Shown: one piece after another, positions 2,756 to 63,608 of the stretch
How positions within the stretch are numbered: position 1 is the stretch's first letter
Layout of the letters: every line of letters begins with the position of its first letter
Source: Thermoleophilaceae bacterium
Lineage (GTDB): Bacteria; Actinomycetota; Thermoleophilia; Solirubrobacterales; Thermoleophilaceae
Direction of reading: 5' to 3'
Assembly: GCA_030447725.1 (NCBI GenBank)
Contig: JAUJOQ010000001.1
Span: 311,068-375,067 of the forward strand
Length of the DNA stretch: 64,000 bases
The notes under the pieces: generated by a model
What the model was told of the DNA's origin: nothing
The model's database searches: none
What the model saw: only the letters and a program-made list of their open reading frames with translations
Translations under genes and position numbers: made by a program

Positions 2756-3453
2756 GGCCGGGCGGGCACCGTGCCGGCGTGGATGGCGATGATCCCGCCC
2801 GCCGTGACCAGGTAGGTCACGGCCTCGAGCCCGACCCTCGCCAATTCGCCGGCCAGCTCGTGCGGCCCCGGGAAGCGGGCCACCGAGCTCGGCAGGTACT
2901 CGTAGGCGTCGGAGTCCCCGGCCAGGCGCCCCATCGCAGGCACGACGCGGTCGAACCACAACCGAAAGAAGACCGACAGGGGCGGCCGCTGCGGCGTCGT
3001 GATCTCGAGCACCACCACCCGCCCGCCCGGGCGCGTGACGCGGGCCATCTCCGACAGCCCGCGCGTCAGGTCTGAGAAGTTGCGCGCCCCGAAGCCCACG
3101 GTGGCGGCGGCGAACTCCCCGTCGGCGTAGGGCAGCTCAAGCGCATTGCCCGGCTCGAAGCGGATGCCGGGTGCCTTGCGGCGCGCCAGCTCGAGCATGC
3201 TCTCGGAGAAGTCGGTTCCGACCACCTCGCCCTCCGGCGACACCCGGCGATCCAGCTCGACGGCCAAGTCGCCCGTGCCGGTGGCCACATCGAGCACGCG
3301 GTCGCCGGGTCCCACGCGGGCGAGATCGGCCGCGCGCGCCCGCCAGCGGTGATGCATGCCCGCGGTCATCACCGTGTTCATCCGGTCGTACACGCCGGCG
3401 ATCCGGTCGAACATCGCCTGGACCTGCTGCTCCGGCAGCGTCCCGGACGGCAC
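2752..3453 (-). CDS. menG: Demethylmenaquinone methyltransferase (UbiE/MenG)
   Basis: VLDVATGTGDLAVEL, GTDFSESMLELARRK, GFGARNFSD. Confidence 0.9.
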   Translation of the reverse strand: MPSGTLPEQQVQAMFDRIAGVYDRMNTVMTAGMHHRWRARAADLARVGPGDRVLDVATGTGDLAVELDRRVSPEGEVVGTDFSESMLELARRKAPGIRFEPGNALELPYADGEFAAATVGFGARNFSDLTRGLSEMARVTRPGGRVVVLEITTPQRPPLSVFFRLWFDRVVPAMGRLAGDSDAYEYLPSSVARFPGPHELAGELARVGLEAVTYLVTAGGIIAIHAGTVPARP

Positions 3454-7582: not shown

Positions 7583-8694
7583 GTGTTCTCTTCCTCCCAG
7601 CGCCGGTGGTCGTCGGTGAAGTACATCAGGCGGATCTTCTTGAACTCCGTCGACGAGTAGAGCGTCCTGCGGTCCTCGATCCCGGTCTCCCCGGCGATGG
7701 AGTCGAGGATCGCGTCGCACTCCTCCTTCGAGCGGCCGTGGGCCATCGTGAAGACCGAGTAGTGCCAGTCCTCGTAGGTGGGCCGCTGGTAGCAGTGCGA
7801 GATCCCGCGGAAGGAGGCCATCAGCGGGGCCACGTCCATGATCCGCTCCTCGGGCACGTTCCACACGCCCATGCCGTTGGCCGAGAAGCCGGCGCGGCGG
7901 TGAAAGAGGATGGCGGCCACGCGGCGCAGGGCCTTGCGGTCCCTCATCGTCTCCAGGTGCGCAAGCAGCTCCCCCTGTGAGATGCCTATCCGCCGGGCTG
8001 CGGGCGCGTATGGCTCGCTGATCACCGGCATGTCGCCCTGCAGCGCCCGGATCACCGCGTAGTCGAGGTCGGACAGCTCGATCGCGTCGGGCTCCATCGG
8101 GTCCTGGGCGACCCCGGCCGCGGCCAGGTCGCGCGTGCCCTTCTCCATCTCGAGGTCCATCCGGATCTTGAACAGCTTGAGCGTGGGCAGCTGGCGCACC
8201 GATTCGGCCCCCGTCAGCTGCTGCAGCGTGTCGAGGGTTCCCTGCATGCCGAGCTTCGACCCCGGCTCGGTGGCGAGCGTGAACCAGAGGTTGAAGTCGT
8301 GGTTGCGCAGGTAGTTGTGAGAGACGCCGGGATGCGAGTTGATGATCCGAGCCGCGCGGTGCGGGTTCTCGGGGTCCACCTTGGCCGCCACCAGCATCGA
8401 CTCGTAGCCCAGTACCCGCGTGTCGAAGATCGGCGTGACCTGCCGGATGATGCGCTCGGCGAGCAGCCGTGAGACGCGGCGCATCACTTCCTCCTCTGAG
8501 ACCCCGGCGAGTCCGGCCACGTGCTCGTAGGGGCGCGGGGCGAGCGGGAAGCTGCCCTGCATGAGGTTGAGGAGGCGCTTGTCGAGCTCGTCGAGCGCCA
8601 CGGCAGCGCCGTCCTTGCGGCTGCGGGCCTTCGGTCTCGCCGCGTTTTCACGTCGGGAGGCGGTGCCTCCCCTCGTTTGTCTCACTGAAGCCAT
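7579..8694 (-). CDS. Fused AsnC/Lrp-type siroheme-decarboxylase-like protein (AhbA-AhbB / NirDL-like)
   Basis: Two tandem HTH+RAM-like halves; second half has GISHCYQRPTYEDWHYSVFTMAHG typical of AhbB/NirDL; adjacent to hemB and hemL. Confidence 0.75.
   Translation of the reverse strand: MASVRQTRGGTASRRENAARPKARSRKDGAAVALDELDKRLLNLMQGSFPLAPRPYEHVAGLAGVSEEEVMRRVSRLLAERIIRQVTPIFDTRVLGYESMLVAAKVDPENPHRAARIINSHPGVSHNYLRNHDFNLWFTLATEPGSKLGMQGTLDTLQQLTGAESVRQLPTLKLFKIRMDLEMEKGTRDLAAAGVAQDPMEPDAIELSDLDYAVIRALQGDMPVISEPYAPAARRIGISQGELLAHLETMRDRKALRRVAAILFHRRAGFSANGMGVWNVPEERIMDVAPLMASFRGISHCYQRPTYEDWHYSVFTMAHGRSKEECDAILDSIAGETGIEDRRTLYSSTEFKKIRLMYFTDDHRRWEEENT
8655..8671. repeat. Perfect GGGAGGC-ggt-GCCTCCC hairpin in the N-terminal extension of the Ahb-like CDS (family-2 related)
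   Basis: 7-bp perfect inverted repeat; shares GGAGGCACCGCC with copy A at ~1270. Confidence 0.55.
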
Positions 8695-9884
8695 TCGGCA
8701 ACCTGCCTCGCGTGGTAGGTGATCACGATGTCGGCGCCGGCCCGGCGGATCGAGGTGAGCGCCTCGAGCACCGCGGCGCGCCTGTCGAGGTATCCGGCCG
8801 CCGCGGCCGCTTCGATCATCGCGTACTCGCCGCTCACGTTGTACGCGGCCACCGGGACCCGTGTCGCCTCCTTCACCCGCCGGATCACGTCGAGATAGGG
8901 CAGCGCGGGCTTGACCATCACCACGTCGGCACCCTCCTCGACATCGAGGAGGGCCTCACGCACCGCCTCGTCGGAGTTGGCCGGATCCATCTGATAGGTG
9001 CGCCTGTCGCCGAAGGCGGGCGCCGAATCGACGGCGTCACGGAAGGGGCCGTAGAAGGCGGAGGCGAACTTGGCCGAGTAGGCGACGATCGGGGTGTCCT
9101 TGTGATCCTCGGCGTCGAGCTGGGCGCGCAGAGCGCCGACACGGCCGTCCATCATGTCGCTCGGCGCCACCGCGTCGGCTCCCGCGGCGGCGTGGGAGAT
9201 CGCGGTCTTGGCCAGCAGCTCGAGCGACACGTCGTTGTCGACCACCGGAGAATCATCCGTGCGGTGCTCGGCCGATCGACGATCGGCCTGCGCTCCTCCG
9301 GCATCATCCGTGCGGTGCTCGGCCGATCGACGATCGGCCTGCGCTCCTCCGGCATCATCCGTGCGGTGCTCGGCCGAGAGCCTCCGGTGCGGTGCTCGCC
9401 GGAACGACGTTCCGGCTGCGCTCCTCCCGTGACGATCGGCCTGCGCTCCTCCGGCTCCGTCGCCACGGATGACGCCACAGTGGCCGTGCGAGGTGTACGC
9501 GCACAGGCACACGTCGGTGATCACGACCAGCTCGGGGTGGGCCTCCTTGAGCGCGCGCACCGCCAGCTGCACGACGCCCTCGTCGTCGTAGGCACCTGAG
9601 GCGCGGTCGTCCTTCTCGGCCGGCAGGCCGAACAGCAGCACCGCCGGCACGCCGAGGGCGTGCGCCCGCCCCGCCTCCTCGACCGCATGCGAGATCGACA
9701 GGCGCTCCACCCCCGGCATCGCCGCGATCGCGGTACGGCTGTCTGTCCCAAGCTCCACGAACATCGGCTGCACGAGGTGCGACGGCGTCAGCTCGGTCTC
9801 GCGCACCATGCCGCGCAGCAGACCTGTCTGGCGCAGCCGGCGCATCCGTGTGGAGGGAAAGGGCATCCCGATCAGTCTAGGCAC
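8682..9884 (-). CDS. hemB: Delta-aminolevulinic acid dehydratase (porphobilinogen synthase) carrying a 68-aa repeat insertion
   Basis: DVCLCAYTSHGHCGVI Zn-cysteine motif, VDNDVSLELLAKTAISHAAAGADAVAPSDMMDGR, YQMDPANSDEA; repeat peptide SAEHRTDDAGGAQADRR in between. Confidence 0.95.
   Translation of the reverse strand: MPRLIGMPFPSTRMRRLRQTGLLRGMVRETELTPSHLVQPMFVELGTDSRTAIAAMPGVERLSISHAVEEAGRAHALGVPAVLLFGLPAEKDDRASGAYDDEGVVQLAVRALKEAHPELVVITDVCLCAYTSHGHCGVIRGDGAGGAQADRHGRSAAGTSFRRAPHRRLSAEHRTDDAGGAQADRRSAEHRTDDAGGAQADRRSAEHRTDDSPVVDNDVSLELLAKTAISHAAAGADAVAPSDMMDGRVGALRAQLDAEDHKDTPIVAYSAKFASAFYGPFRDAVDSAPAFGDRRTYQMDPANSDEAVREALLDVEEGADVVMVKPALPYLDVIRRVKEATRVPVAAYNVSGEYAMIEAAAAAGYLDRRAAVLEALTSIRRAGADIVITYHARQVAEWLQ
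9252..9455. repeat. Four in-frame 51-bp palindromic units inside hemB (two tandem, the third split by a nested variant)
   Basis: 9252-9302 and 9303-9353 near-identical; 9354-9455 is a third unit interrupted at its hairpin apex by cctccggtgcggtgctcGCCGGAACGaCGTTCCGGCtgcgctcctcc; total 204 nt = 4 x 51. Confidence 0.92.
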
Positions 9885-36330: not shown

Positions 36331-36398
36331 GGAGGAGCGCAGCCGGGACGTCTCGGGAGGAGCGCAGCCGGGACGTTGTCCCGGCGAGCACCGCACCG
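36331..36398. repeat. Palindromic element family 1: half copy (36331-36351) followed by full copy (36356-36398)
   Basis: GGAGGAGCGCA-GCCGGGAC-gtt-GTCCCGGC-GAGCACCGCACCG; the half copy ends at the hairpin apex. Confidence 0.9.
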
Positions 36399-36449
36399 AC
36401 CCTCTCATCTGTCAGAATGGCCTGACCAGGGAAAGGAGGTGGTCCTAAC

Positions 36450-36494
36450 TTGATAGACAGAACATTCGGGACTCTGGAGGTGTCCGGCCGCTAG
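36450..36494 (+). CDS. Candidate 14-aa small ORF (LIDRTFGTLEVSGR) with exceptionally long SD
   Basis: gAAAGGAGGTGGTCCtaac-TTG; near-full complement of the canonical 16S 3' end. Confidence 0.4.
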   Translation: MIDRTFGTLEVSGR

Positions 36495-36504
36495 ACCGGA
36501 CGTC

Positions 36505-36600
36505 GGGGAGGGCCCAGGCGGAACGTTGTCCCGCCGAGCACCGACCCGTTGACGTTGGGAAGGAGCGCAGGCGGAACGTTGTCCCGCCGAGCACCGACCC
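36505..36600. repeat. Palindromic element family 1: two further copies (36505-36547, 36558-36600)
   Basis: GGCGGAAC-gtt-GTCCCGCC-GAGCACCGACCC twice, 53-bp offset; second has intact GGAGCGCA left flank. Confidence 0.9.
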
Positions 36601-36731
36601 GGGGATTGACTGGACCCCGTCGAGCGGAGTCCAACCGTGACACCGTCGGGAGTGGTGGCTGGGACTTGTCCCTCCGGCCCGGGCTGGGTGCCCGTGAAGC
36701 CACCCCGATCGAAGTCCAGCAATGGTGTACC

Positions 36732-40610: not shown

Positions 40611-42527
40611 ATGAGAACGCCCGACAGCACAGCAGCCCACGGAGAACCTCCGGTGCGGCGCTCGCCGGAGAACCTCCCGTCCGGCGCCCGGGTCGTGCTG
40701 GGGCGCTACGAGCTCGAGAAGCGGCTGGGCGCGGGCGGCTTCGGGGTGGTGTGGCAGGCACACGACGTCAAGCTCGAGCGCGACGTGGCCGTCAAGGTGG
40801 TGCCGCGCGAGGAGGGTCCCGACGACCGCTCTCGCGTGACGCGGGAGGCGCTCGCCGCGGCGCGGCTCAACCACCCCGGCATCGTGGCGCTCTACGAGCT
40901 GGGATCTGACGACCACGACGTCTACCTGGTCTCGGAGCTGGTGCGCGGCGCCACGCTCGAGGAGCTGGCGCGCGAGGGCGCGGTCTCCGATCGCGATGTG
41001 GCCAGGATCGGCAAGGCTCTCTGCGAAGCTCTCGAGCACGCGCACGCCCGCGGCGTCATCCATCGCGACGTGAAGCCCGGCAACGTGATGGTGCTCGCCG
41101 AGCCGGCCGCTGGAGCCGGGTTCGCCAAGCTCGGAGACTTTGGCATCGCGCACCTGGCCAGCGGCGAGGGACTCACCGCCACCGGCGACGTGGTGGGCAC
41201 GCTGGCCTACATGGCCCCCGAGCAGGCGGAGGGCCGTCGCGTCACCGGGGCCTGCGATGTCTACTCGCTCGCGCTCACCCTCTACGAGGCCTGGACTCAG
41301 AGCAACCCGGTGCGTGGTCAGAGCCCCGCCGCCACGGCGCGCAACGTCGGCCAGCCGCTGCCGCCCCTGCGTTCGCGGCGCAGCGACCTGCCGCCCGAGC
41401 TCGGCGAGGTGATCGATGCCGCTCTCGATCCGGACCCTTTCTACCGGCCCGAGCCCGGCCAGCTGCGCGCGGTGCTCGGCGACGTCGAGGGCGCCCTGTC
41501 GGACGAGGGCGGTCTGGTCGAGCCCGAGACCCTGGAGCGCTTTGGGCTGACCGCCGTCCGAGCCCGCACACGCCTGCGAACGCTGCTGCACCGGGGCGCC
41601 GCTGCAGCCCCCTCCCTCGCCGGCGACGAGCACGAGCGCGCGCAGGCGCGGCGACAGAGCCTGGCCGTGCTCGCCGCGCCGCGCCTTGCCGCCGGGGTGG
41701 GCGCCGGCGTGCTGCTGCTCGCCGCCCTCGAGGGCCTTGGACCCGAGCCGCCGATTTCACCCGCGGCCGCCGCCGCAGCGGCGGCGCTGGTGGTGGCTGT
41801 GCTGCCGAGGATCGGATGGCTGGTCGCCGCTGTGGGCATCTGCGCCTGGCTGGCCTCGCCCGAAGCCGACCGCACGGGTGCCGCCCTCGCACTGGCGGTC
41901 GCCCTCGCACCCGTGCCGCTGCTGCTCCCGCGCGCCGGCGTGCTGTGGTCGGCGCCCGCGCTGGCGCCTCTGCTGGGGACCGTGGCGCTGGCGCCGATGT
42001 TCGTGGGCATAGCCGCGCTCGCCTCGACCGGTTGGCGGCGCCTCGGGCTCGCCGTGGCCGGCTTCCTATGGCTGGCGGCGGCGGAGGTGGCCACGGGCCG
42101 CGATCTGATGTTCGGCGTGGCCGACGGGACCCTCGAGCGGGGAGCCTGGGAGGCTTCCGCGGTCGACGCCGTCAATGAGGCGCTCCTGCCCCTCGTGACC
42201 AGTCCTGCGCTCGCGCCAGCCGCGGTCTGGGCCGCCTTCTCCGGTCTGCTCGGGCTTGCGCTGCGTGGCCGGTGGGCGGCGGTCGACCTGATGCTCGCGG
42301 CGGTGTGGGCGGTGGGTCTGGCGGCGGCCCACGGAGCGCTGGGCGACTTGCTGGCGGCGAGCACCGAGCTCGAGTATGCCCGGGGAGCGGTGGCTGGAGC
42401 CGCGCTGGGGGGCCTCGTGGCCGTGACCACAACCCTGATCGCCCCACCGATGAAGGCTCCGGGGCGCAGGCCGGGCCCTTCGCGCCGCGCACACAGGGAA
42501 GGCCGCACTACCCTGAGCCACCCATGA
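40611..42527 (+). CDS. Serine/threonine protein kinase with C-terminal polytopic membrane domain
   Basis: LGAGGFGVVWQAHD, VIHRDVKPGNVMV, DFGIAHLASGEG; multiple hydrophobic segments after residue ~350. Confidence 0.92.
   Translation: MRTPDSTAAHGEPPVRRSPENLPSGARVVLGRYELEKRLGAGGFGVVWQAHDVKLERDVAVKVVPREEGPDDRSRVTREALAAARLNHPGIVALYELGSDDHDVYLVSELVRGATLEELAREGAVSDRDVARIGKALCEALEHAHARGVIHRDVKPGNVMVLAEPAAGAGFAKLGDFGIAHLASGEGLTATGDVVGTLAYMAPEQAEGRRVTGACDVYSLALTLYEAWTQSNPVRGQSPAATARNVGQPLPPLRSRRSDLPPELGEVIDAALDPDPFYRPEPGQLRAVLGDVEGALSDEGGLVEPETLERFGLTAVRARTRLRTLLHRGAAAAPSLAGDEHERAQARRQSLAVLAAPRLAAGVGAGVLLLAALEGLGPEPPISPAAAAAAAALVVAVLPRIGWLVAAVGICAWLASPEADRTGAALALAVALAPVPLLLPRAGVLWSAPALAPLLGTVALAPMFVGIAALASTGWRRLGLAVAGFLWLAAAEVATGRDLMFGVADGTLERGAWEASAVDAVNEALLPLVTSPALAPAAVWAAFSGLLGLALRGRWAAVDLMLAAVWAVGLAAAHGALGDLLAASTELEYARGAVAGAALGGLVAVTTTLIAPPMKAPGRRPGPSRRAHREGRTTLSHP
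40647..40688. repeat. Degenerate family 1 palindromic element in the N-terminus of the kinase
   Basis: cctccggtgcggcgctcGCCGGAgaacctcccgTCCGGC; first 23 nt differ by one base from the nested hemB unit. Confidence 0.55.
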
Positions 42528-47980: not shown

Positions 47981-49890
47981 CCGAAGTAGCCGAGAACACC
48001 ACGGTCGACGGGCGCTACCGCATCCTGCGCCGCATCGGGTCAGGCGGGATGGCCGACGTCTACCTGGCCGAGGACAGCCACCTGGGGCGTGAGGTGGCGC
48101 TCAAGGTGCTGCATCGCCGTTTCGCTCAGGACGCCGAGTTCGTGGAGCGCTTCCGCCGCGAGGCGCGCTCCGCGGCAGGCCTTCAGCACCCCAACGTGGT
48201 CGCCGTCTACGACCGGGGCGAGCACGACGGCACCTACTACATCGCCATGGAGTATCTGAGCGGCCGCACGCTCAAGGACATCGTGACCGAGGAGGCTCCC
48301 CTCGATCAGATACGGACGATCGAACTGGGCGTGAGCATCCTCCAGGCGGCGGCGTTCGCCCACCGGCACGGCGTGGTCCATCGCGACTTCAAGCCCCATA
48401 ACGTGATCGTCGACGACGACGGGGTGCCAAAGGTCACGGACTTCGGCATTGCCCGCGCCGGGGCGTCGGAGATGACCGAGACGGGCTCGATCATGGGCAC
48501 CGCGCAGTACCTGTCACCGGAGCAGGCCCAGGGCCACTCCGTGACCGCGGCCTCGGACATCTATTCGATCGGGATCATGCTCTATGAGATGCTCACCGCC
48601 AAGCAGCCCTTCGGGGGGGACAGCGCCGTCTCGATAGCGCTCAAGCACCTTTCCGAGCCGCCTCCAGCGATGTCGGGGGAGGGGCTCGCCATCGAGCCCA
48701 ACCTCGAGGCCGTGGTGATGGGCGCGCTGGCAAAGGATCCGGCCGCGCGATGGGCCTCGGCGGACGACTTCGCTGTGGCGCTCGAGGCTTGCCGACCGTA
48801 CGTGGAGGCCCAGGCCGCCGGGGGCAACGGCCCCGTCGCGACGGACAGCACGGCGGCCTTTGCGGCGGTACCCGTGGTCGCGGCGGGCCCGGCGGTGGCC
48901 CCTGCCGCCGCCGAGGAAGAGGAGGAGCGATCGCGGCGGTGGCCCATGCTCACCCTAGGGCTGCTGGTGCTGGTGCTCATCGGGCTGATGATCTTCGCGT
49001 TCTCCCGCCCGGAGGAGGTCGACGTGCCGCGGGTGGTGGGCCAGCAGCTCACCGACGCCCGGGAACGGCTCGACCGCGCCGGCTTCGAGCAGGTGGAGGT
49101 CGAGCGCGAGCGCAGCTTCGCTCCCCTGGATCGCGTGCTGCGCCAAGACCCCGACCCGGGCGAGCGCGCGCCTCGAGACGAGCCGGTCGTCCTGATCGTC
49201 TCGGGTGGGCCGGGGAAGGTGCGGGTGCCCGACGTGACCAACTTGCCGGAGGAGCGAGCGCGCAAGGACCTGAACGAGGCCGGACTGAAGGTCGATACCG
49301 ATGTCGAGCCCTCGAACAACGTCAAGAAGGGCTTTGTGATCCGTACCTCTCCACCCGCCACGACCTCGGTGGACCGCGACAGTCGTGTGAGGATGTTCGT
49401 GAGCTCGGGGCCGAAGAGGGTCTCCGTGCCCGATGTGGTGGGCCTCACCCGTGAGGCCGCCGAGACGCGCCTCACCCGTGAGGGCCTCGACGTGCGCGTG
49501 GAGATGCAGCAGTCCGAGGAGCCCGAGAACGAGGTGATCGCCCAGTCTCCGGGGGCCGGGGAGACGCTCGACCGCGGCGACGACGTGACGATCACCGTGG
49601 CCGTGGCGCCCGAGGAGCCCGAGCCGGTAACCGTTCCCGATGTGACCGGCCTGACCCGGGCCGAGGCCCTGCGGGCGCTGCGCAACGCGGGGCTTCGGGG
49701 ATCGGTCAGCGAGCGCGCCACAGACAACGCCGACGAGGATGGAGTGGTGCTCAGGCAGAGCCCGGGCAACGGCGCGGAGGTCGACTCGGGCGCCACCGTG
49801 ACGCTGGTCGTGGGGCGCTTCGAGGCGCCGGAGGACCCCGTCGATCCGGATCCGGTGGCTCCCGACCCCACGGTTCCCGGCGAGCCGTGA
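47977..49890 (+). CDS. pknB: Ser/Thr protein kinase with four PASTA repeats (PknB/StkP-like)
   Basis: IGSGGMADVYLAED, VVHRDFKPHNVIVD, four VxVPDVxGL PASTA units. Confidence 0.94.
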   Translation: MTEVAENTTVDGRYRILRRIGSGGMADVYLAEDSHLGREVALKVLHRRFAQDAEFVERFRREARSAAGLQHPNVVAVYDRGEHDGTYYIAMEYLSGRTLKDIVTEEAPLDQIRTIELGVSILQAAAFAHRHGVVHRDFKPHNVIVDDDGVPKVTDFGIARAGASEMTETGSIMGTAQYLSPEQAQGHSVTAASDIYSIGIMLYEMLTAKQPFGGDSAVSIALKHLSEPPPAMSGEGLAIEPNLEAVVMGALAKDPAARWASADDFAVALEACRPYVEAQAAGGNGPVATDSTAAFAAVPVVAAGPAVAPAAAEEEEERSRRWPMLTLGLLVLVLIGLMIFAFSRPEEVDVPRVVGQQLTDARERLDRAGFEQVEVERERSFAPLDRVLRQDPDPGERAPRDEPVVLIVSGGPGKVRVPDVTNLPEERARKDLNEAGLKVDTDVEPSNNVKKGFVIRTSPPATTSVDRDSRVRMFVSSGPKRVSVPDVVGLTREAAETRLTREGLDVRVEMQQSEEPENEVIAQSPGAGETLDRGDDVTITVAVAPEEPEPVTVPDVTGLTRAEALRALRNAGLRGSVSERATDNADEDGVVLRQSPGNGAEVDSGATVTLVVGRFEAPEDPVDPDPVAPDPTVPGEP

Positions 49891-49961
49891 GGGTGGCCCT
49901 GCTCGCTGGCGGCCGCTCCGGCGAGCCGTGAGGGTGGCCCTGCTCGCCGGCGGCCGCTCCG
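49879..49961 (+). repeat. 41-bp tandem duplication spanning the kinase stop/ddl start junction
   Basis: ggcgagccGTGAgggtggccctgctcgc[t/c]ggcggccgctcc twice, offset 41 bp. Confidence 0.95.
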
Positions 49962-61434: not shown

Positions 61435-62790
61435 ATGGAGATCCTCCAAGAGATCGGCTCCTACGCGGGACTCGCGGCGATAGTGGGACTCGCCGTGCTG
61501 TGCGCCCTGTATTTCTCGCAGGCGCGAGACGTGCGCCGCCTGCGCGATTGGGCGGGCCGGGCGCCCGAGCGCACCAGCGAGCCGGCCGCCCAGCCGGCGC
61601 GTGTGGCGGTGAGGCCTGTGCCCAGGCCGCCGGGCGCCCAGCCGACCTATCCCGGCCTGCGCCCGCTTGGCCAGGCGCCTCCCGGCGCGGCGGCGGCCTC
61701 CGCTGCGGGTGCGGCGCCCGCGGTGGCCGCCGGTCCCGGCGCCGCCACCGCGGCCGCGGCCCGGACGGCAAGCAGCGGCGAGGAGGGGCGGGACTCGAGC
61801 GAGGGCGTGTCCCAGGACACGATGTCCCATCCGCCTCCCTCCCCCCATGAAGGGAACGATCACGGGCCCGATGTGGAGGAGCCTGAACGGGGCCTGACCG
61901 AGGACTCTCCCGGCCTGGTGGAGGACGTCGAGCCCGACGAGGGCGAGGACGAGCTGGTTCACGAGGAGCAGGACGAGCCGGTTCACGAGGAGCAGGACGA
62001 GCCGGTTCACGAGGAGCAGGATGAGCCGGTTCACGAGGAGCAGGATGAGCACGAGGAGGATTGGCATGACCGCTACGACGACCCCGACGGGGACACCGGG
62101 GAACGGCCCGCAATCGCCCCCGCTCTCCCGGCGGCCGGCGCCTCGCCTCGCCCCGTGCCTCCGCCTCCACGCATCACGCTGCCCCCGCGGGGCTCGCCGG
62201 CCACGCGGCCGGACACGGCGTCAGGCTCGGTGATCCTGCCGCCCTATGAGCGCAGCCGTCCCGGCGGGGATCGGTGGTATCGCCGTCTCTTCCACTCGCC
62301 GGGCAGGGCCGCGCTGGTGATCGGGCTCGGAGTGCTTGTGCTGGCCGCGGCGACGCTCGGCGGTCTCAAGCTGGCAGGGGGCGACGAGTCCGACGCGCCC
62401 GCCCCCGGCCAGGCCGCGGACGCCGGGCCGGCCGCCGGCGCAGGCGGCCAGGGCGCAGGCGCCACCAACACCGGGGCGCGCAATCCGCAGACCGGCATCG
62501 ACCCGTCGCAGGTCACGGTGGCGGTGCTCAACGGCACCACGGTCACCGGCCTCGCCGCCGACGTAGGCGACACGGTGGAGAGGGAGGGCTACCAGCTCGG
62601 CAACGTGACAAACAGCCTCGACCAGGAGCGGGCCGAATCGGTCGTCTTCTACGCGCCGGGGGCGGAGGCCGAGGCCGAGGACGTCGCTCGCCGGCTGAAG
62701 ATCGCCCAGCGCGAGGAGATCGACCCCGACACCCAGGCGCTGGCGGGAGACGCGAGCGTGGTCGTGGTGGTCGGCGCCGACAAGACGTAA
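61435..62790 (+). CDS. Membrane protein with acidic repeats and LytR C-terminal (LytR_C-like) domain
   Basis: C-term VTVAVLNGTTVTGLAADVGDTVEREGYQLGNVTNS...VVFYAPGAEAEAEDVARRL; TM ALVIGLGVLVLAAATLGGL. Confidence 0.8.
   Translation: MEILQEIGSYAGLAAIVGLAVLCALYFSQARDVRRLRDWAGRAPERTSEPAAQPARVAVRPVPRPPGAQPTYPGLRPLGQAPPGAAAASAAGAAPAVAAGPGAATAAAARTASSGEEGRDSSEGVSQDTMSHPPPSPHEGNDHGPDVEEPERGLTEDSPGLVEDVEPDEGEDELVHEEQDEPVHEEQDEPVHEEQDEPVHEEQDEHEEDWHDRYDDPDGDTGERPAIAPALPAAGASPRPVPPPPRITLPPRGSPATRPDTASGSVILPPYERSRPGGDRWYRRLFHSPGRAALVIGLGVLVLAAATLGGLKLAGGDESDAPAPGQAADAGPAAGAGGQGAGATNTGARNPQTGIDPSQVTVAVLNGTTVTGLAADVGDTVEREGYQLGNVTNSLDQERAESVVFYAPGAEAEAEDVARRLKIAQREEIDPDTQALAGDASVVVVVGADKT
61951..62050 (+). 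repeat. 24-bp tandem repeats encoding (E)PVHEEQDE x4
   Basis: gagcyggttcacgaggagcaggay repeated four times. Confidence 0.95.
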
Positions 62791-62804
62791 AGCTGCGGTT
62801 CGCT

Positions 62805-63608
62805 TCAGGCGAATATCCCCGCGTCGCGGTTTGCCGCCGCTGCCTGTTCGAGCAGAGGCCGGTCCACGAGCGTGAGCGTCCGGCCGGCGACCTCGACGGT
62901 CGCGCCCTCGTGGGGCGGATACCAGAACGCCCGCATCCGCCGCTCGGTCAGCTCGGGCGGGTCACCGGGTCGCACACGGCGCAGCTGCTCGAACTCCTCG
63001 CGCGTCACGTAGCGGCCCTCGCCCTGCGGGATGCGGGGCAGCGGCTCCCCGGTGGCGGTGAGATCGACAACGTCGGCGAACATGGCGAGGAGCCGCTTCT
63101 GGCTGGCGATGTCGAGTGACAGCGCCGTCTCGTGAACCGGGTCGATCCCGAAGCGGTCCACCCGCACGATGTCGCCCGTATCGAAGTCCTCGTCGACGAA
63201 GTGGGCGGACACGCCCCACTCGGCAAGGCCCTCGAGGATGGCCACGTTGTAGCCGCCGAGCCCGCGGATGTCCGGCAGGGGGGAGGGGTGGAAGTTGAGG
63301 CAGCCGACCGAGCCCAGCTCGATGAGGGGCACGCGGATTCGCTTCCAGAACAGGAACGAGAGCACGAGGTCGACTCCCCCGAGGTCGATGCGGGCGCCGC
63401 CGGGATCCTCGATGGCGGCGTAAAGCTCTTCGTCGGTGACCGCGGGGATGTCACGGCGCGAGGCGGCCAGATCCAGCCGCTGTTGGGGCGCCGCGGGGCC
63501 AGGCTGCTCCGGCGCAACCACGGCCGCCACGTCCCAACCTCGTTCGACGAGATGCTCCAGCGCTCCCACGGCGGAGCGCTTGTGCTTGCCCAGGAAGACG
63601 GCCTTCAC
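62805..63608 (-). CDS. Formyltransferase family protein (sugar N-formyltransferase-like)
   Basis: CLNFHPSPLPDIRGLGGYNVAILEG...AHFVDEDFDTGDIV: N/H/D catalytic residues. Confidence 0.85.
   Translation of the reverse strand: MKAVFLGKHKRSAVGALEHLVERGWDVAAVVAPEQPGPAAPQQRLDLAASRRDIPAVTDEELYAAIEDPGGARIDLGGVDLVLSFLFWKRIRVPLIELGSVGCLNFHPSPLPDIRGLGGYNVAILEGLAEWGVSAHFVDEDFDTGDIVRVDRFGIDPVHETALSLDIASQKRLLAMFADVVDLTATGEPLPRIPQGEGRYVTREEFEQLRRVRPGDPPELTERRMRAFWYPPHEGATVEVAGRTLTLVDRPLLEQAAAANRDAGIFA

Follow-up and report, generated by a model that had tools for sequence, protein, structure and literature searches.

REP-like palindromes in a Thermoleophilaceae genome that form nested arrays and probably insert into their own hairpin loop

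Palindrome copies around gyrA and hemB and their distribution

The window, that is, the whole stretch of 64,000 nucleotides analysed here, contains five exact matches to the pattern GGAGCGCA-N19-GAGCACCG, while 0.02 were expected from shuffles. Two of these hairpin cores lie on the forward strand (36359-36393 and 36562-36596) and three on the reverse strand (9262-9296, 9313-9347 and 9390-9424). An earlier note on this DNA had described constant flanks enclosing differing but complementary arms, and all the arms that it quoted are present in the five copies, including the pair with one mismatch, GGCGGAAC/GTCCCGCC. The interval 36331-36600 consists of two independent insertion sites. The first, just downstream of gyrA on the forward strand (36334-36393), is an array of one left half-unit (36334-36358) and a complete hairpin core (36359-36393), and at its counterpart in G003, a genome of the same genus, lies an array of three layers whose arms differ. 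The second is a dimer insertion of about 108 nt on the forward strand (about 36502-36609), made of two 54-nt elements with cores at about 36509-36543 and 36562-36596. It sits in a genus-conserved segment and is missing there in G003, G001, G004 and G002. The conserved segment itself (36417-36690, forward strand), also downstream of gyrA, includes a perfect Shine-Dalgarno sequence (AAAGGAGGTGGTCC) and a 14-codon open reading frame (TTG ATA GAC ... TAG), has no Rfam match and may encode a leader peptide or a small RNA.

The three reverse-strand cores, together with an outer left half-unit (9441-9449), form an in-frame array in hemB (9247-9453, reverse strand). The hemB reading frame (8682-9884) is open despite the array and encodes 400 amino acids, compared with open frames of 332 amino acids; the gain is about 204 nt, or 4 x 51. 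The site is empty in G003, G002 and G001, and Pfam ALAD matches were found on both sides of the insert. The nearest named relative of this hemB is from a Thermoleophilia MAG, with 63% identity. Degenerate right half-units of repeat family D8 at 40640-40690 (reverse strand), near the start of a protein-kinase-like reading frame (40611-42527), are, we infer, a remnant of the element. At 62799-62805 the source genome has an empty site where the G003 element lies directly after a stop codon (L227, 320-383). The window also includes 24-nt tandem repeats inside a reading frame (61913-62056), which encode HEEQDEPV-type repeats and differ in number from those of G003, and a 41-bp tandem duplication (49877-49958, 98% identical) with no relation to the palindromes.

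The assembly of the source genome (G000) comprises 3.17 Mb in 13 contigs and is 93.75% complete. A genome-wide search for the 35-nt core with at most 3 mismatches returned 99 copies against 0 in the reversed control, and the exact-flank pattern returned 82 matches against 2; these counts come from pattern matching, and copies that the patterns do not fit may have escaped. The proposal that the family is genome-wide was thus borne out, far beyond the window. Within the genus, 51 copies were found in G003 (an assembly that is 64% complete), 9 in G004, 8 in G002 and 0 in G001. G009, from a second genus of the family, has 90 copies, and single copies were found in two further genomes of the family. 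Carriers were found only within this one family among the 399 genomes of the class that were scanned, and the phage, plasmid and IMG/VR collections searched gave no match to the element. Rfam searches of 11 kb of the window (E<=1) and of three array loci (E<=0.1) yielded no match to the element either; two weak matches in the window, both inside gyrA with scores far below gathering, were discarded. The assembly is a draft with N gaps at several arrays, but an artefact of assembly is hardly credible, as other assemblies (G003, G004 and G009) show the same family and the same nesting, and copies lie at shared orthologous sites and in intact reading frames. An artefact is already excluded for the family, while individual array lengths are uncertain.

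Hairpin anatomy and covariation

A single element of about 54 nt has the structure GGGGA-GGAGCGCA-(8-nt arm)-GYY-(8-nt arm')-GAGCACCG-CACCGGANNCTCTC. The core hairpin has an 8-bp stem and a 3-nt GYY loop. The flanks pair too (GGAGCGCA with GAGCACC), in an imperfect helix interrupted by constant A-A and G-A mismatches and one bulged A. The hairpin is an invariant, irregular lower stem topped by a variable, self-complementary upper stem. Covariation was assessed in a gap-free alignment of 44 distinct 35-mers picked by their exact flanks alone. In the stem (columns 9-16 with 20-27) 96.3% of the cells were paired, and both sides had changed in six of the eight stem pairs. The covariation score was 0.443, compared with 0.133 for shuffled alignments (0 of 500 as high); slid structures did not exceed 0.048. 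The stem cells are not independent, since a few arm subtypes dominate. The covariation that had been pointed out earlier is therefore real. The double changes were nearly all flips, with few G-U intermediates (C-G/G-C 33/10, 33/5 and 23/19; U-A/A-U 21/18). Orthologous occupied sites can also differ by whole compensatory arm changes: the arm downstream of gyrA is GCCGGGAC in the source genome and GCCGGAAC in G003, and two other such sites have CCG versus CGG arms.

These data bear on whether the hairpins are RNA elements, such as 3'-UTR stabilisers, terminators or processing sites, with the pairing kept by selection on the transcript. The covariation of the stem, a strong bias of the copies toward gene 3' ends (see below) and the folding of single cores, which is better than that of their own shuffles, all speak for such a role. 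Covariation alone is, however, no proof of RNA selection, because template switching gives the same pattern (PMC8794818), and the mostly-flip covariation fits DNA-level copying of one arm from the other at least as well. Against RNA elements stand the flips with few G-U intermediates, the lack of an Rfam match, the copies located antisense to and inside genes, and three properties of the nested arrays: unequal layer numbers, weak pairing between linkers, and a nested fold only marginally above shuffles. Selection of the structure as RNA, one of the options raised in the earlier note, is improbable in view of this evidence. The family may help to tell apart selection on an RNA and copying of arms at the DNA level as sources of covariation in stems.

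Mobility, placement and nesting

Occupied and empty orthologous sites were identified at hemB and at loci L032, L071, L217, L227 and L238. Of nineteen G003 sites that could be placed, one proved to be a false pattern match, 12 carry an element in both species and 6 carry one in G003 alone. The source genome in turn has private copies at hemB, C1:1.155 Mb and L071. Clean single insertions measure 54 nt, as at murC (where MurC is 18 amino acids longer than in G002 and G004) and in the comparison of L238 with L071; the insertion in pcrA measures 45 nt. No clear target-site duplication was seen in the occupied/empty pairs examined. This presence or absence of whole elements at orthologous sites supports the other option of the earlier note, that the palindrome is copied as a unit. 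At L049 (about 2860-3010; C10:186.8 kb) an array lengthens TrpD at its C-terminal end as far as the start codon of the next gene, and the right end of the element also provides a GGAGG just before the ATG. The corresponding site in G003 has just CACCGGAGGCTCTCC, identical to the right end of the element, and this is perhaps the footprint of a lost copy.

Rough gene calls placed 62 of the 83 sites outside reading frames. Half of these extragenic sites (31/62) are no more than 20 nt from the 3' end of a gene, compared with 6% of random intergenic points, both sets scored likewise with a home-made ORF scoring in place of a gene finder. Placement in REPs is typically intragenic and 3'-proximal (PMC3733652). 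In-frame insertions with empty orthologues were found in hemB, murC and pcrA, and others were recognised by domain span in P450, trpD, GH57 and AddB-like genes; in-gene calls in the start regions of dnaX, nuoD and DUF72 and at C1:1095704 were discounted, since these copies probably precede the real start. The inserted peptides are spanned or flanked by domain matches in HemB, MurC, P450, PcrA, TrpD, GH57, the AddB-like protein and a DEAD-box helicase linker. The family is thus a case of repeated in-frame palindrome insertion into essential enzymes outside Rickettsia.

Many copies form nested arrays, which, like the in-frame insertions, are absent from the earlier note. When the arrays were tokenised, left half-units of about 25 nt (GGAGCGCAG-NNN-GANCGYY-linker) were found stacked 5' of the core and right half-units of about 26 nt (a linker ending CTCTC-NNN-CGAGCACCG) stacked 3' of it. 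In mixed arrays the arm types are mirror-ordered: 31 of 36 levels match, a fraction that permutation put at 0.51 and never reached in 5000 trials, while reversing the order leaves 15 of 36. At the 44 informative levels, drawn from G000, G003, G004 and G009, where the outer left arm is unlike the core, the right arm matches the outer left arm in 38 and the core arm in 5. Many sites share composite hairpins that have the same linkers; not every nested level is therefore a separate event, and such composites may spread as units too. The nested right halves do not have GNTC beside the loop, which indicates that insertion is not perfectly clean. A site at C13:54.6 kb has three hairpins in the source genome and one in G003; its outermost flanks are orthologous with those of G003 and enclose 105 nt, about two layers, a difference that is unpolarised, since G003 could have lost inner layers. 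A limited search of the open-access literature found no description of nested REP hairpins.

Of 63 arrays, 34 have as many left as right layers; the other 29 do not, which points to later one-sided slippage. Homogeneous tandem expansions also occur among the arrays. Pairing between linkers was rejected as support for a long-range structure, as 271 of 5000 permutations were equally good, and the fold of a nested array was only marginally above that of its shuffled versions (z -1.9). Uneven layers and homogeneous expansions, along with the dominance of flips, would also be expected if the family were the product of replication errors alone, namely template switching between arms and slippage of the 25/26-nt repeats, transposition now playing little part. 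Template switching, a mutational process, explains multi-base compensatory change in hairpins without RNA selection (PMC8794818) but leaves dispersal and mixed-arm nesting unexplained. Replication errors cannot place new dispersed copies at empty sites, nor do they account for mirror-ordered layers of different arm types, and it is unlikely that they acted alone.

The family probably consists of REP-like, non-autonomous mobile palindromes that insert into their own hairpin loop and whose arms are kept complementary by copying. In the mechanism that we propose, a host-encoded or trans-supplied enzyme would copy the element, probably in the form of an extruded hairpin of single-stranded DNA, with the apical GYY loop of copies already in place as a preferred target, giving rise to Russian-doll arrays. 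Replication slippage would then duplicate the 25-nt left or the 26-nt right units unevenly, and arm-to-arm template copying would keep complementarity while the arm sequence drifts. What is new is the self-nesting with mirror-ordered arms and the repeated, tolerated in-frame insertion.

Known palindromic elements and the search for a mover

The closest known systems are the REP/BIME elements mobilised by RAYTs, also called TnpA-REP (PMC2817692, PMC3733652). The resemblance includes a hairpin core of 20-40 bp, a conserved tag, an irregular stem, about 100 copies, locations near gene 3' ends and sometimes intragenic, and a species-specific abundance. The present family might be made of REPs of the usual kind, mobilised by a RAYT whose gene was missed, the assemblies being incomplete, or recently lost. 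Size, copy number, hairpin and placement are all REP-like, and the element is indeed a high-copy, mostly extragenic short palindrome. However, there is no unpaired terminal GTAG tag: the flanks are GGAGCGCA and GAGCACCG, the 5' flank reads GGAG instead of GTAG, and its 5' GG pairs in the fold. The arrays are nested in the same orientation, with two conserved flanks, and are not BIMEs of alternating orientation. The RAYT that had been suggested was sought with the Y1_Tnp model (PF01797), with no hit in the five bearer genomes, and with the RAYT model NF047646, with no hit in the genus, so that no RAYT gene flanked by inverted REPs was detected in these incomplete assemblies; positive controls were detected. 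Such an absence in incomplete assemblies is evidence, not proof. The family was not filed as a RAYT-REP because tag, transposase and BIME arrangement were each tested and none was observed, and mobilisation by a RAYT now out of sight appears rather doubtful.

Other palindromic elements share some of these features. CGTC-tagged REPs are known palindromes without a dedicated transposase that have 8-9 bp stems and occur inside genes, as intragenic REPs in general do, but they have another tag and loop, typically form head-to-head dimers and are mainly alphaproteobacterial (PMC3733652). The present element resembles them in that searches with the Y1 and RAYT models revealed no dedicated transposase, and its flanks do not end in CGTC. 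Rickettsia palindromic elements are known to insert in frame within unrelated, often essential, genes (PMC10969869, PMC3733652), as occurs here in hemB, murC and pcrA and, by domain span, in others. They are set apart by host and by size (about 150 nt, compared with about 54), and the present copies are mostly extragenic and nested. MITEs are likewise small, non-autonomous palindromic mobile DNA (PMC10969869), but the present element appears to nest in its own loop and is without a clear target-site duplication in the occupied/empty pairs.

The movement of REP-like palindromes is still poorly understood, and known REP systems for which a mover has been named depend on a Y1 (RAYT) enzyme. We tentatively consider it possible that these elements are a RAYT-independent class of mobile palindromes in which another enzyme targets the apical loop of the element's own extruded hairpin, producing the nested arrays. 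REP mobility without a RAYT becomes directly testable in this family, as its copies vary between close species, its nested layers with their distinguishable arm types record its history, and it appears to be without that enzyme.

A reverse transcriptase was considered as the mover and found no support, as it is not common to the bearers and no left-flank motif lies near the G000 gene. RVT_1 was matched partially by one gene of G000 and by a dissimilar one of G002, and the high-copy G003 and G009, both incomplete assemblies, gave no match. The reverse-transcriptase-like reading frame of G000 (L271, 1399-2331; contig C9, about 210 kb) has a YIDD motif, and that of G002 (L270) has YADD.
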